A program made the position numbers and the translations under genes. From positions 1 to 43,789 of IMG/VR virus record IMGVR_UViG_3300046520_000168: 43,789 bases of DNA; one strand, written 5' to 3'. The DNA is from a virus. The notes under the pieces are model-generated. The model saw only the letters and a program-made list of their open reading frames with translations, had not been told where the DNA came from and did no database searches. This document shows, piece after piece, positions 14,200-20,689 of this stretch; the first letter of the stretch is position 1, and each line of letters begins with the position of its first letter.

Positions 14200-15351
14200 T
14201 TACAGCGATTCGTTCTTTTGTTTTTTCAATTCCGCATTGCATGCTGGGCTGTTGTTAAAGGTGTACTCCACTACGAAGTAGCCCTTATCTCTGGAAAGCG
14301 CTCGTGCATCAATTGAAATACTGTTGATGTCATTCTTGATTCCGGGCCCCCTCCATTCTGCAGCTAAAGTTCGATCCTGTTTGTAAAGGCCGGTCATCCA
14401 ATCATTTGAGTCCTTCCAAATGCTGCTTGGCATCAAGAAGTCATAGGTCTTCGGCTTTCCGTAAATTGAGGTCAAGGCATCCTTCATGGTGCCGTAGCCT
14501 GCTTGCAGCTGGTGCCCGAAGTCATTCGTTTGGATGGTTTTGCTTATCCCCCGAACCACGCAAAGGCCGACTGTCGGGGATATGACCAAGCCATATTGCT
14601 CAAAAGCATCGTTAGGCTTAGGAGCCCTATCGAGCAAGTAAAGGTTTTCAGATTCTTTGGCGAGCCGCGGGGCTTCTCCTGTCATTTTTTCAATGGCATC
14701 TCCACTTATGCCCGCCTCAAATCCAAACGGGCCAGATCCAGGTGGCAGAAGATTAGATTTGGCTGGTAACTGGGATGAGGCAGCCGAAGTCGTCGGAACT
14801 GCGCTCAAAGTGGATGACGGTAGTGCAGATACACGAATAGGATTTAAGCCATATTTTGCCACTAGGTACTGCTGCTCTAGCATCGCGAGGGTCTGCTCAC
14901 TAGTCGCTACAGTGGAGAGCTTCAATGCTTGGATAAGCCCGCCGCTGTATTGGGCGGCCTCAGCTTTTGCAGAGGCAATGCCTGCCTTCGCTTGCGTTAT
15001 TTCGGCTGATAGTTTGCTGGCGAGATCCTCGTCCACCTTGGAGGTAACTGTGGCTATAGTTACGCTACTTTGTGATTGGACGGCTAAAATTCGTTGCTCT
15101 AACAGCGCCTGATTGGTTTTAAGAATTTCAACCCGAGTTGAAATCAAATCCTTTATCAGCCCTCCGCTATAGACGGCCGCCGACCGAGTGCCAGCATCGA
15201 TATCCTGTTTTGTCTGCGCAAGCTCCGTTTCTAAGCTGGCAACATATGCCTTTTGCTCTGGAGTGAGATCTTTTTCCATACACCCTTGGAGAATGATGGC
15301 AGCTACAAAACAAAAAATGTATCCGTGCATGCGCAATTTGAATCCCCCCAT
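14200..15351 (-). CDS. Outer-membrane-type lipoprotein, unknown function
   Basis: About 383 aa. The N-terminus has a basic start and hydrophobic core ending in a lipobox, YIFCFVAAIILQGC, so the Cys would be lipidated. Then follow two helical repeats, each with YSGGLI and LLEQ/MLEQ blocks (about residues 60-100 and 135-170), a Pro/Ser linker, and a beta-rich domain of about 190 residues with a conserved-looking GYGTMKDALTSIYGKPK. Start uncertain: ATG 15351, TTG 15336 (best spaced behind GGGGGGA) or ATG 15330; an ATG at 15372 is also in frame. Transcribed alone between a divergent gene and a terminator. A prophage lipoprotein suggests lysogenic conversion, such as receptor blocking; not proven. 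Confidence 0.75.
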   Translation of the reverse strand: MGGFKLRMHGYIFCFVAAIILQGCMEKDLTPEQKAYVASLETELAQTKQDIDAGTRSAAVYSGGLIKDLISTRVEILKTNQALLEQRILAVQSQSSVTIATVTSKVDEDLASKLSAEITQAKAGIASAKAEAAQYSGGLIQALKLSTVATSEQTLAMLEQQYLVAKYGLNPIRVSALPSSTLSAVPTTSAASSQLPAKSNLLPPGSGPFGFEAGISGDAIEKMTGEAPRLAKESENLYLLDRAPKPNDAFEQYGLVISPTVGLCVVRGISKTIQTNDFGHQLQAGYGTMKDALTSIYGKPKTYDFLMPSSIWKDSNDWMTGLYKQDRTLAAEWRGPGIKNDINSISIDARALSRDKGYFVVEYTFNNSPACNAELKKQKNESL

Positions 15352-15471
15352 ATTGAGTCCGTACTTTACCATTCATGGCGCACAGCCACCATTGGTCACT
15401 CAGAGTGCCATCATACTGAACGGTCCGTGTAATCTGCCCTCTACCCCAATAGACCACCATTAGGGGCTCCA

Positions 15472-15730: not shown

Positions 15731-15802
15731 GTAGATGGGGCCAAATCCCTTTGGCGGACCGCATTGTGCTTGGTAGCTTTGACGAAGGCGTGACAGACAG
15801 AT

Positions 15803-15832
15803 ACGAAAAGCCCGACGCTTGGCCAGGCTCTC
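15803..15832. terminator. Terminator-like hairpin, degenerate copy 2
   Basis: ACGAAAAGCCCGACGCTTGG followed by CCAGGCTCTC repeats copy 1 (100 bases upstream) with about four changes. On the minus strand it lies just after the DUF1828-type gene stop (15837) and ends AGCCTGGCC...GGGCTTTTCG, so it probably terminates that leftward gene. Confidence 0.55.
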
Positions 15833-15836
15833 AGCT

Positions 15837-16601
15837 TCAGGCCGCAAGCGACCTTATATCCTCAATTAGCTGAGATGCGGTCTTGAAAACCAGCACGCTT
15901 GCGCTTTCTGCCAGTGCAGACGCCGCCTTGCCCACATCCTGAGGGTTGGCCGACTCCAGAATCACCAAGCGCCTTGCTTGTGGCGCGGCGTTCTTTAGGT
16001 CAACCATTTTCCCCAAGGTACTGTAGACGGATAGCCAGTGCGGCTTGTCATCCTGAGCACTAACGGTCTGGATGATCTGCGGATTTCCGGATTCAACATC
16101 AAGCGCGAACTGGAACTTCAGGTTGTGGCCACTTGCGCCCTGAACCTCATAGTCCCTTTTCACGCGCTTCGGAAATCCGGCGCGAAGAGCCTTGGAGACA
16201 ATCTTCTCAAATTTAGATATGGGCGCAGGTCTCCAAGCATCGCAAGCTTGGCTGATCTGGCTGGCCGCTTCGATAAATCGAGCCATGTAGTACGGCACAT
16301 CCTTCTCGGCACACGATGCATGCAGTTCGCCGCTTTCCGATAGTGCTATGTGACAATCCGAAGCGATGCTGGCCAGTTTCGCGGCTTTGTTTGCATTTGG
16401 GCTCACACCCATAGTCATCGCGTGGAACAAGGTATCAGCGTTGTCGGTGATGCGAACCCGACCTTGCCCAATATCCTGAACGTACGCACCGATCAGGGTG
16501 CCGTCAAAGGATAGGGAAATTGGGCTTTCTAGGTAAACGAGGCCGCTATTGATATGCGTACACGCTAGACCGAAAGCCTCGGTAATATGTGTGCAGTTCA
16601 T
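15837..16601 (-). CDS. DUF1828/DUF1829-type protein of a two-gene module
   Basis: 254 aa. The N-terminal block YLESPISLSFDGTLIGAYVQ, then RVRITDNADTLFHAM, is the DUF1828 pattern; the rest (PISKFEKIVSKALRAGFPK, FQFALDVESGNPQIIQTVSA, ARRLVILESANPQDVGKAAS) fits the DUF1829-type part that often follows. Such proteins are carried by prophages and plasmids with no proven function. The last block looks like a Rossmann-type or nuclease-like alpha/beta segment. Its ATG overlaps the stop of the partner gene (16598-16601), implying co-translation. The module lies downstream of cI on the same strand, the rexAB position in lambda. Confidence 0.75.
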   Translation of the reverse strand: MNCTHITEAFGLACTHINSGLVYLESPISLSFDGTLIGAYVQDIGQGRVRITDNADTLFHAMTMGVSPNANKAAKLASIASDCHIALSESGELHASCAEKDVPYYMARFIEAASQISQACDAWRPAPISKFEKIVSKALRAGFPKRVKRDYEVQGASGHNLKFQFALDVESGNPQIIQTVSAQDDKPHWLSVYSTLGKMVDLKNAAPQARRLVILESANPQDVGKAASALAESASVLVFKTASQLIEDIRSLAA

Positions 16602-17113
16602 ATCAACCTCATTTGTGGCTCATCATTTTCCGTCGGCAGATTTATTGGTGGCGCGCCGATGATATTGGCACGACTTAGAAATACCTGCCACAAGCTTGAG
16701 ACGGACTGTGCTTCAAGGGGCTCGATATACCCGTACGACGCCTCAGGGACTGGCAAATGGATGTGTGGGTGGGAAATTTTCTGCATGAAAAACTCCCTTC
16801 CAATGCCGACCTTGTTCACATGATTGGCCGACCCGTTCTCGTCTATCCCGAAGACTCGGGCATTATTGACCAGCAGGGTCATGTACAGCTTGTCCGGCAC
16901 ATCCTGAATTAGGCTTGGCTTGTAGTCGAGCTGGAGGAATAGACCCTCTGGACGCACATTGCCAACTAGAAGTGCGGTCCTGAATTTGAAGCTTGAGGGC
17001 CACTGCTTGACCGTTGTCTGAACCCACTCAATGGAGTTCCCAGCGTCCCAACGCTTTTCTAATTCAAGGCCGGCTATTGCTTCTTCATAGGAGATTTTTG
17101 AAGGCTTTGCCAT
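16598..17113 (-). CDS. Partner protein of the DUF1828-type gene
   Basis: 171 aa, soluble. Mixed alpha/beta with blocks FRTALLVGNVRPEGLFLQLD, DKLYMTLLVNNARVFGIDEN and a histidine-rich FFMQKISHPHIHLPVPEASY. The HPHIH cluster could be a metal site. Proteins of this look next to DUF1828 genes are annotated only as domains of unknown function in my memory. The stop overlaps the downstream ATG by four bases. No strong ribosome-binding site (GGAG lies 12 bases away), consistent with read-through from the cI transcript 75 bases upstream. Confidence 0.7.
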   Translation of the reverse strand: MAKPSKISYEEAIAGLELEKRWDAGNSIEWVQTTVKQWPSSFKFRTALLVGNVRPEGLFLQLDYKPSLIQDVPDKLYMTLLVNNARVFGIDENGSANHVNKVGIGREFFMQKISHPHIHLPVPEASYGYIEPLEAQSVSSLWQVFLSRANIIGAPPINLPTENDEPQMRLI

Positions 17114-17187
17114 TCACGCAATGCTCCGCATCTGCATTCCTTTGGCGCCCATGATGGGCCACGCTCGCATACGTTATAAGAAAAGGG

Positions 17188-17460
17188 CTATATCGGCTTC
17201 GCCCTGGTGATTCGCTGATCCTTGACCTCATCGGCATAGCCGCGCAGCTTCTGCTGCTGAGCCTCTAGCAGCACGCACATTTTCATCAGTGCAATCGCTT
17301 CATCGGGCGATTTGCCGCTGCCGGCCATGCTCGTCAATTCGGCCATTGTCCAGCCAAGGACTGCGCTCGCATCCTCAAGGTCATAAAACAGCTCCTGCTG
17401 CGCAGTGCGTGGCCCGTCGAGCCCCTGGATAAGATCTGCCATCAATACCTCTTCTGCCAT
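17188..17460 (-). CDS. Small conserved phage protein downstream of cI
   Basis: 90 aa, acidic and helical (AQQELFYDLEDASAVLGWTM, DEAIALMKMCVLLEAQQQKL) with a basic tail. Starts at 17460 or at 17442 (MADLIQ). It lies nine bases after the preceding small gene and is therefore part of the cI transcript. Helical bundle; function unknown. Confidence 0.6.
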   Translation of the reverse strand: MAEEVLMADLIQGLDGPRTAQQELFYDLEDASAVLGWTMAELTSMAGSGKSPDEAIALMKMCVLLEAQQQKLRGYADEVKDQRITRAKPI

Positions 17461-17468
17461 GGCAGTCT

Positions 17469-17681
17469 TCAATGAAGAGTCTTTCGGCTTTCGCCAATCC
17501 TGATCCGATCCAGCGCACGGTTTAGAGCATCCAAGGCTTCGAGAAGGGCTTTCGCTTCTGCCTCTCGACCGTCGCCCCAAAGACGTTCAGCCATTTTGTT
17601 CAGGGCGAGGATTGATCGCTCTATGTCTGCAGCAGTTGATGTGGCTTTGCTTTCCGGCTGATTCTTCGTGGTGATCGGCAT
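17469..17681 (-). CDS. Small helical protein directly downstream of cI
   Basis: 70 aa. After a short polar start (MPITTKNQPESKATS) come two amphipathic helices (ADIERSILALNKMAERLWGD and EAEAKALLEALDALNRALDR). The ATG at 17681 is four bases after the cI stop, so it is co-transcribed and probably translationally coupled. It would be made in the lysogen. Function unknown. Confidence 0.6.
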   Translation of the reverse strand: MPITTKNQPESKATSTAADIERSILALNKMAERLWGDGREAEAKALLEALDALNRALDRIRIGESRKTLH

Positions 17682-17685
17682 AGCT

Positions 17686-18552
17686 TCAAACCGGTTGTCC
17701 GTTCCACACATAAAGCACCCGGGCCAGTATGTGGGTGTCGTCCACACGAATGTCTTCAGGGTCGTGGTGCTTGTTATCCGAGATCATCTTGAAGCGGTCC
17801 TTGCCTTTCTTCTGCAAGCGCTTCACGTACAACATTTCGTCGTGGGAGAAGAGATAGATACCGTCACCGGTGAACTCTCTGATCGTGATGTCTACGAGAA
17901 GGGGGTCGCGATCCTTGATCGTAGGGGCCATCGACTGCCCCCAACCGGTGATCATTTTGAGATGAAAGTGCTCTTTGAACGTGACGCCCATCTCGCGCAG
18001 GTGTTTGGGGCTGACCCTTATGTCCTGAAGCATTTCTGGGTATTCGTGCGGGATCTGCCCGCCGCCCATCGCAGCGCGCACGTCATAGTGGGCAATCCAC
18101 ACCTCATCACCGACTTGGCCTGGGCGAGAGAAATCTACGTTGATTACGTTGCTTTTTTCTTCGGCGGCAGCGAGAAGACGGTCTCGAGCTTCAGGTGAAA
18201 GTCCTTTTCCCTGCTTCGCGAGCATTTGGCGAACGATGTCGGCAGCCGATGCGCTCGGTGCAGTCAGCCCTGAGTGCTCAGCAGCGCTTGTAAGGCCGCT
18301 TATTTCAGTCGCCAGTCTTTTGCTGAATTTCTCAATGGGGACGTCGAGCAGGCGCGATAACACCGCCGCAAACTTCACGTTCAGTGGGTTGGTTCCGTTC
18401 AGGTACATCGCAACGGCGGCTGCGGAGATGTCAGCCGCTTCCGCAAGGCTTGCTTGAGTGAGGCCAAGGGCATTCTTTTTCGATACGAAGAGCGCCTTCG
18501 CGGCGTCGCACTCTGCTTTTAACTCTGGGGAAAGTTCTTTCTTTTTGCTCAT
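17686..18552 (-). CDS. cI: CI-like prophage repressor, HTH plus S24 peptidase domain
   Basis: 288 aa. N-terminal helix-turn-helix at about residues 30-55 (GLTQASLAEAADISAAAVAM) binds the 13-bp operators at OL and OR. C-terminal LexA/CI-type S24 domain: catalytic Ser207 in WGQSMAPTI and Lys244 in LYVKRLQK. The usual Ala-Gly cleavage bond is not obvious; the equivalent region reads VRAAMGGGQ (158-166). The ATG has little Shine-Dalgarno (CACGG), which fits a short-leader transcript from a PRM inside OR. It maintains lysogeny by repressing PL and PR. Confidence 0.93.
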   Translation of the reverse strand: MSKKKELSPELKAECDAAKALFVSKKNALGLTQASLAEAADISAAAVAMYLNGTNPLNVKFAAVLSRLLDVPIEKFSKRLATEISGLTSAAEHSGLTAPSASAADIVRQMLAKQGKGLSPEARDRLLAAAEEKSNVINVDFSRPGQVGDEVWIAHYDVRAAMGGGQIPHEYPEMLQDIRVSPKHLREMGVTFKEHFHLKMITGWGQSMAPTIKDRDPLLVDITIREFTGDGIYLFSHDEMLYVKRLQKKGKDRFKMISDNKHHDPEDIRVDDTHILARVLYVWNGQPV

Positions 18553-19799: not shown

Positions 19800-19822
19800 A
19801 TTAACACTTGATGAGGTCGATT

Positions 19823-20689
19823 ATGCAGAGCCAACTCAATTCAAGCAATACCTCTCCCAATGTCGCGACACGTTTTATTAATTCCGAAAACGTGTCGCGA
19901 ACCAAACCGGCAACCCCTTTCAGTTTTCACGGCCTTCTGGTTCGCGTCATTGACGACGGCTCAGGAGAGCCTTGGTTTATCGCCAAGGACGTGGCTGAAG
20001 CACTCGGTTACGCCAACACATCGAAAGCTATCAACGCCCACTGCAAAGCTGTGAATACCTGCCATACCGAAATGGGAGGGCAGGTCAGGGCAGTGCAGAT
20101 CATCCCGGAGCGTGATCTTTACCGGCTGGTGATGAAGTCGAAGCTGCCGGCTGCCGAGCAATTCGAGGAGTGGGTGGTGGGCCAGGTACTACCGAGCATC
20201 CGCAAGACTGGCAACTTCTCAGCCCGGGCGCAGAACAACTCCAAAATCATCGGCGAACTGGCCATCCTTGAATGCTTCGATCGCCTTCTAAAACCGGCGC
20301 CTTCCAGCAAGATGATGATGCTGGCCCAGATTGCCGCCAATAACGGTCTAGACGCCAAGTTCCTACCTGGCTACGCCGTTGACGCCGCACCAGACGCCGC
20401 CGGTGGCGGCTCCATGCCAACCAAAGCCGTTACCGCCCTAATCAAAGACTTTGACTTGCGCACGTCGGCACCAGTTTTCAACAAACTGCTGGCCGCCGCA
20501 GGTTTCCTGAAGCAACTCCAGCGCAAAAACTCCAAGCAGGGGATGGTCGACTTCTGGTCGGTGACCGAGAAGGGCATGGCTTATGGCAAGAATCTCACAA
20601 GCCCCCAATCCCCCCGCGAGACACAGCCTCACTGGTACGTCGATCGCTTCCTCGAACTGGCCGACCTGATCGGCAAAGGCGGCAAGTAA
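19823..20689 (+). CDS. Bro-N antirepressor-type protein
   Basis: 288 aa. Residues about 30-135 are a Bro-N domain: FHGLLVRVIDDGSGEPWFIA, KDVAEALGYANTSKAINAHC, then ERDLYRLVMKSKLPAAEQFE and WVVGQVLPSIRKTG. A C-terminal domain (about 180-285, TAVTALIKDFDLRTSAPVFN, KLLAAAGFLKQLQRKNSK) is the usual second module of phage antirepressors. Known relatives inactivate repressors or regulate early genes. Start at 19823 has GAGG seven bases upstream. The first 25 codons contain a perfect 14-bp inverted repeat. Stop overlaps the next ATG (TAATG). Confidence 0.85.
   Translation: MQSQLNSSNTSPNVATRFINSENVSRTKPATPFSFHGLLVRVIDDGSGEPWFIAKDVAEALGYANTSKAINAHCKAVNTCHTEMGGQVRAVQIIPERDLYRLVMKSKLPAAEQFEEWVVGQVLPSIRKTGNFSARAQNNSKIIGELAILECFDRLLKPAPSSKMMMLAQIAANNGLDAKFLPGYAVDAAPDAAGGGSMPTKAVTALIKDFDLRTSAPVFNKLLAAAGFLKQLQRKNSKQGMVDFWSVTEKGMAYGKNLTSPQSPRETQPHWYVDRFLELADLIGKGGK
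19863..19900. repeat. Perfect 14-bp inverted repeat in the antirepressor 5' end
   Basis: TCGCGACACGTTTT and AAAACGTGTCGCGA separated by ten bases, within codons 14-26 of the antirepressor gene. The half-site CGCGACACGTTT recurs at 25,001 behind the holin gene. Likely a protein-binding site or an RNA hairpin controlling antirepressor expression. Confidence 0.8.

Follow-up and report, generated by a model that had tools for sequence, protein, structure and literature searches.

Lambda RexAB is encoded in the prophage by two genes that lie behind cI on the same strand, and in Pseudomonas putida two additional genes separate cI from the RexAB-type pair PP_5643-5644 (PMC12894663). HipAD, or DS-6, an experimentally validated defence system, is likewise a two-gene pair, with the effector HipA encoded first and followed by a DUF3037-DUF1829 protein (PMC13092281). 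In the TumE-TumA modules (DUF6516), TumE represents a validated toxin family that inhibits translation and is described as having seven strands and two helices and no relative in the PDB; its partner is a small RelB-like antitoxin and in most pairs the toxin is encoded second (PMC10584680). PDC-M24, a candidate system of PADLOC, is composed of PDC-M24A (DUF6978) and PDC-M24B (DUF1828/DUF1829), encoded adjacently on one strand with A first. DUF6978 and DUF1828/DUF1829 occur in common bacteria and in phages but are unexplained, and a literature search revealed neither a paper naming PDC-M24 nor an experiment on its anti-phage activity. Two other PADLOC candidates, PDC-M63AB and PDC-S04, showed no activity on testing (PMC12409345).

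The locus described here contains the same two families as PDC-M24 in the same arrangement, in a divergent branch that is phage-borne and linked to a repressor gene. We propose that these genes form a PDC-M24-type defence cassette with which the prophage excludes superinfecting phages. It would be made in the lysogen, with the first protein acting as a toxin and the second as its neutraliser and as a sensor, and we assign this reading a probability of about 0.55.

The gene pair behind cI

The window, by which we mean the whole stretch of DNA that was analysed, comprises 43,789 nt of a Pseudomonas phage. cI, the two small genes orf1 and orf2, and the pair, designated A and B, are all encoded on the minus strand, and cI is the upstream end of the lysogeny operon.

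17686-18552, minus strand: cI-type repressor, 288 aa, with HTH_3 (PF01381, 2e-8) and S24 peptidase (PF00717, 2e-18) domains
17469-17681, minus strand: orf1, 70 aa, starting 4 nt past the cI stop
17188-17460, minus strand: orf2, about 90 aa, phrog_6388
16598-17113, minus strand: gene A, 171 aa, containing HPHIH; divergent DUF6978/PDC-M24A-type protein, probably TumE-like, proposed toxin
16757-16858, minus strand: the part of A that encodes R86 to H119, whose motif R86-D91-H98-x-N100-H117-x-H119 is retained in distant branches
16598-16601, minus strand: ATGA shared by the stop of A and the start of B, an overlap that almost all homologues in proteobacterial phages retain
15837-16601, minus strand: gene B, 254 aa, DUF1828 in the N-terminal half and a C-terminal half in the position of DUF1829; PDC-M24B; proposed neutraliser and sensor
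15806-15832, minus strand: hairpin and U-run just past the B stop, a possible operon terminator, weak in that it is no more stable than shuffled sequences
15798-17153, minus strand: approximate extent of the exchangeable cassette, from the limits of DNA homology to pair-bearing phages with other neighbours (L011, L002 and L116 compared with L034 and others)

The interval 15837-17681 is bounded by the stop of B and the start of orf1 and therefore contains the A-B pair and both small genes. The gene order given in an earlier note on this DNA, cI followed by two small genes and the A-B pair with its ATGA overlap, is accurate by the coordinates. The note likened this arrangement to rexAB, and the position behind cI and the coupling of the two genes bear out the comparison, with two small genes intervening, as in the P. 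putida pair. Homology to RexAB, by contrast, is not found: the families differ, no search returned a RexA or RexB match, and both predicted models are of soluble proteins, with no multi-pass membrane protein of the RexB type.

Comparison with relatives that are 94-99% identical in protein gave for A a dN of 0.018-0.028 and a dS of 0.50-0.57 (dN/dS about 0.03-0.06), and for B a dN of 0.003-0.005 and a dS of 0.50-0.55 (dN/dS about 0.007-0.01). The low dN relative to dS means that both reading frames encode proteins on which purifying selection acts strongly. In the lysogen the pair is probably co-transcribed with cI, its expression from the cI promoter being deduced from the gene order. A promoter scan showed no promoter-like site and was uninformative, and no RNA family was found in the region.

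Relationship of A and B to PDC-M24, and probable kinship of A to TumE

B matches DUF1828 (PF08861, 31.7 bits, cut-off 22) and the PADLOC model PDC-M24B (E 4.2e-8, residues 36-230 of 254). Its DUF1829 half is not detected by Pfam in the window's protein, whereas relatives do match DUF1829, in agreement with the note's description of B as a 254-aa protein of the DUF1828/DUF1829 type; A is, as it had stated, a 171-aa protein with an HPHIH cluster. Profile searches with the window's own A gave no Pfam or NCBIfam match, and no PADLOC or Pfam model, PDC-M24A and DUF6978 included, matched at E<=1; a weak match to phrog_2017 (E 0.001) was obtained. The A homologue of Escherichia phage ev207 matches DUF6978 and PDC-M24A (E 5e-4 for PDC-M24A), and a profile of the A branch built from 27 sequences could be aligned to the DUF6978 core along 130 columns with an E of 4e-6, compared with 0.56 for the reversed control. 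For canonical PDC-M24 members the matches to the two models are strong, with E values of 4e-53 for A and 2e-104 for B. From the B match, the ev207 match, the profile alignment and the canonical matches it was concluded that the pair, as judged by sequence, is a divergent branch of PDC-M24, which PADLOC already lists as a phage-defence candidate. What is added here is the probable kinship of A to TumE and the predicted composition of B from DUF1828 and a nuclease-like half without catalytic residues.

The predicted model of A (pLDDT 83) consists of seven strands and two helices and has no match in the PDB, which corresponds to the description of TumE. A structure search with A returned one uncharacterised protein, from a virus, at E 6e-5, and a sequence search against solved structures yielded nothing useful. 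A also has the R-D / H / HxH motif order in common with TumE, and both are encoded in two-gene modules. When the DUF6978 core was compared with the TumE profile, the score was 24.7 (E 0.002), whereas none of 60 column shuffles exceeded 16.0, and the R-D / H / HxH motifs lie in register in the alignment. The clearest direct match to TumE is that of A from the haloarchaeal Halorubrum virus Humcor1 (E 0.003, 18.1 bits, below the curated cut-off of 23.4). The window's A does not match the Pfam TumE profile, the phage A branch alone reaches an E of 0.08, below significance, and hhalign gives the TumE link a probability of 4-14%. Taken together, these comparisons suggest that A is probably a distant relative of TumE. 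The two modules differ in that the candidate toxin is encoded first here, unlike in most TumE pairs, and in that its partner is a 254-aa DUF1828 protein instead of a small RelB-like antitoxin. A cupin assignment of A, derived from an HxH(x)3-4E motif, received no support from the fold search, and profile searches and the predicted model gave no similarity of A to kinases.

B was modelled with a pLDDT of 91. Its two halves were assigned from the identity of the fold matches and from topology: the N-terminal half resembles DR_1245, and the C-terminal half has a nuclease-like topology with marginal matches to Card1 (E 5e-3), Can2, NucS and McrC, all at E 5e-3 or weaker. An active PD-(D/E)XK nuclease was considered for B and rejected; the catalytic D and D/E-x-K positions are not conserved and the fold match is marginal. 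The aspartate of the FDF motif, present in the DUF1829 half of canonical PDC-M24, is absent from the window's B. According to the model, B thus joins DUF1828 to a nuclease-like half without catalytic residues. As an antitoxin B would be far larger than usual, and it lacks a clear DNA-binding domain. Kinship of B to DUF3037 was also considered. A mixed alignment gave an E of 7e-4, but with the cleaned alignment the score fell within the shuffles, so that the former value is an artefact. In contrast to HipAD, whose effector is a kinase, the pair encodes a DUF6978-type protein together with a B without DUF3037 similarity in the cleaned profile.

On the basis of these relationships we infer the following mode of action. 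A would be a TumE-like toxin that halts growth, most likely by blocking translation by means of a nucleic-acid-cleaving site around H98, H117 and H119. B, which is translated from the overlapping start and hence made together with A, would keep A inactive, while its DUF1828 half and the catalytically dead nuclease-like half would serve for binding or sensing. On superinfection the incoming phage would disturb B and free A, and the cell would halt before the rival phage multiplies.

A doubtful alternative, although the one that survives best, is that A and B form a single defence complex without TA logic, in which the nuclease-like half of B binds an invading nucleic acid or phage protein and A becomes an effector only once the complex is assembled, neither protein being toxic alone. 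DS-5 is a precedent, as its two genes make up a defence system of a kind other than TA (PMC13092281), and the pairing and translational coupling of A and B, like the marginal fold matches of B to the nuclease domains of Card1, Can2, NucS and McrC, are compatible with such a complex; the resemblance of A to a toxin family and the loss of the catalytic D and ExK positions from B argue against it.

Pairing and distribution

A survey of gene neighbourhoods for co-occurrence of the two families, which the earlier note had set beforehand as a test, revealed that they do occur together elsewhere. An A gene recognised by HMM lies directly upstream in 49 of 62 distinct B homologues, and in most of the remaining 13 the place of A is taken by a DUF6978-type gene; distinct sequences were counted instead of contigs, many viral contigs being near-identical, and even distinct sequences are not independent events. 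Where A is present, the 4-base overlap is nearly always the same in proteobacterial phages. In 369 gammaproteobacterial genomes all six DUF6978 matches adjoin DUF1828. Among 5426 complete E. coli genomes, full-length A was found in 238 and full-length B in 238, with cI and the pair together in 236; the carriers of this branch include Nissle 1917 and ATCC 25922. Prophage e14 of MG1655 was considered as a carrier and dismissed, the ORFs behind its repressor looking unrelated by inspection.

Of 47 distinct B genes from phages and prophages, 42 are preceded on their own strand by a cI-like gene. The order repressor-A-B is found in the Pseudomonas Detrevirus phPA-G, in Escherichia phage ev207, whose gp49-gp48 belong to the E. 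coli branch, and in a Helicobacter prophage, and also in Staphylococcus phages 37 and phiSP119-3, Streptococcus phage Javan197 and Lactobacillus phage Lj965, where A matches DUF6978 with E values of 6e-31 to 1e-37. The recurrence of this order across such hosts indicates that the pair has long been carried in the lysogeny region of phages from several phyla. The pair also occurs without a neighbouring cI, in Humcor1 (L231, 1998-3181) and in chromosomal copies that have no recognised cI alongside. A decayed chromosomal pair was observed in the gamma proteobacterium L18 (L003, 5803-6764), in which the middle of A is lost and B is frameshifted.

The exchangeable cassette and the slot downstream of the repressor

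E. coli Nissle 1917 and E. coli O157:H7 8368 encode an identical cI protein (WP_001302016.1). At the DNA level the two share homology as far as a point 2 bases short of the end of cI and again from a point 2 bases short of the end of B; in between, across the pair region, they differ. In the relatives of the window, orf1 is also found behind cI of the pair-less phage L034, whose cI is 94% identical, which places orf1 outside the exchangeable segment; orf2 is likewise present in relatives that lack the pair. The pair, moreover, accompanies different types of cI (L011, L116). As delimited by DNA homology, the A-B pair behaves as an exchangeable cassette. Two further divergent A-B branches of the M24 type occupy the same cI-downstream slot in L036 and L040, which suggests repeated independent acquisition of the pair.

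The occupants of this slot were surveyed in 61 relatives of the window's cI for which downstream DNA was available. In sister phages the slot contains beta of gop-beta-cll (E 1.5e-156) and PDC-S42 (E 1e-30), and further occupants are a HipA-like kinase with DUF3037, an HTH antitoxin with a small partner, and PIN, AAA and GHKL proteins. HipAD-like pairs of a HipA-like kinase and a DUF3037-type or similar second gene fill the slot in the sister Pseudomonas phages L035, L059 and L067, the second gene being of the DUF3037 type in L059 and L035, and the slot of L059 shows in addition a weak match to PDC-M66. The comparison of sequences shows that the two families travel as a unit in repressor-downstream slots in which they are swapped with known or predicted defence genes. 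By analogy, the case for a defence role of the pair is made chiefly by this equivalence of slots. The earlier note had put the pair forward as a candidate for a new exclusion or TA-like system. A role of either kind is likely, because known defence genes share the slot, whereas newness is not supported, PDC-M24 being already listed. The position behind cI suggests itself as a general place in which to search for new defence genes.

A broader and more tentative proposal, to which we give slightly less than even odds, extends the exclusion cassette to PDC-M24 as a whole. PDC-M24 may be a phage-triggered TA system in which a toxin of the TumE superfamily (DUF6978) is held by a superinfection-sensing DUF1828 protein with a dead nuclease fold, and which is exchanged as an exclusion cassette in the repressor-downstream slot of temperate phages of very different hosts. 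The link to a toxin superfamily and the swappable slot would turn unexplained families into a concrete, testable exclusion system.

The TA-like architecture, the TumE-like A and the chromosomal copies without a recognised cI would also suit a plain addiction module that stabilises the prophage without excluding phages. This is improbable in view of the slot, which also houses relatives of tested defence genes (beta; HipA-like kinase with DUF3037), and of the little need that a chromosomally integrated prophage has of addiction. That the pair instead serves its own phage as a regulator of lysogeny or induction, for instance by modulating cI or sensing the state of the host, and has no part in defence, would fit its place beside cI in phages of several phyla but is very improbable, given that unrelated genes replace it beside an identical cI, that it accompanies cI proteins of different types, and that it occurs without an adjacent cI in chromosomes and in a haloarchaeal virus.

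Some neighbouring genes were characterised by inspection. Behind orf2 of L034, at the place of the pair, lies a frame that resembles a trypsin-like serine peptidase, as in L091 (391 aa). On the other side of cI, a Bro-N-like protein of the antirepressor type is encoded on the opposite strand of the window (19808-20689, plus strand). Downstream of B, at 14200-15372 on the minus strand, the window encodes a 390-aa putative lipoprotein with an LQGC lipobox, which is apparently a second accessory gene, lying outside the cassette, since a close homologue occupies the same place in L103 next to a different cassette.
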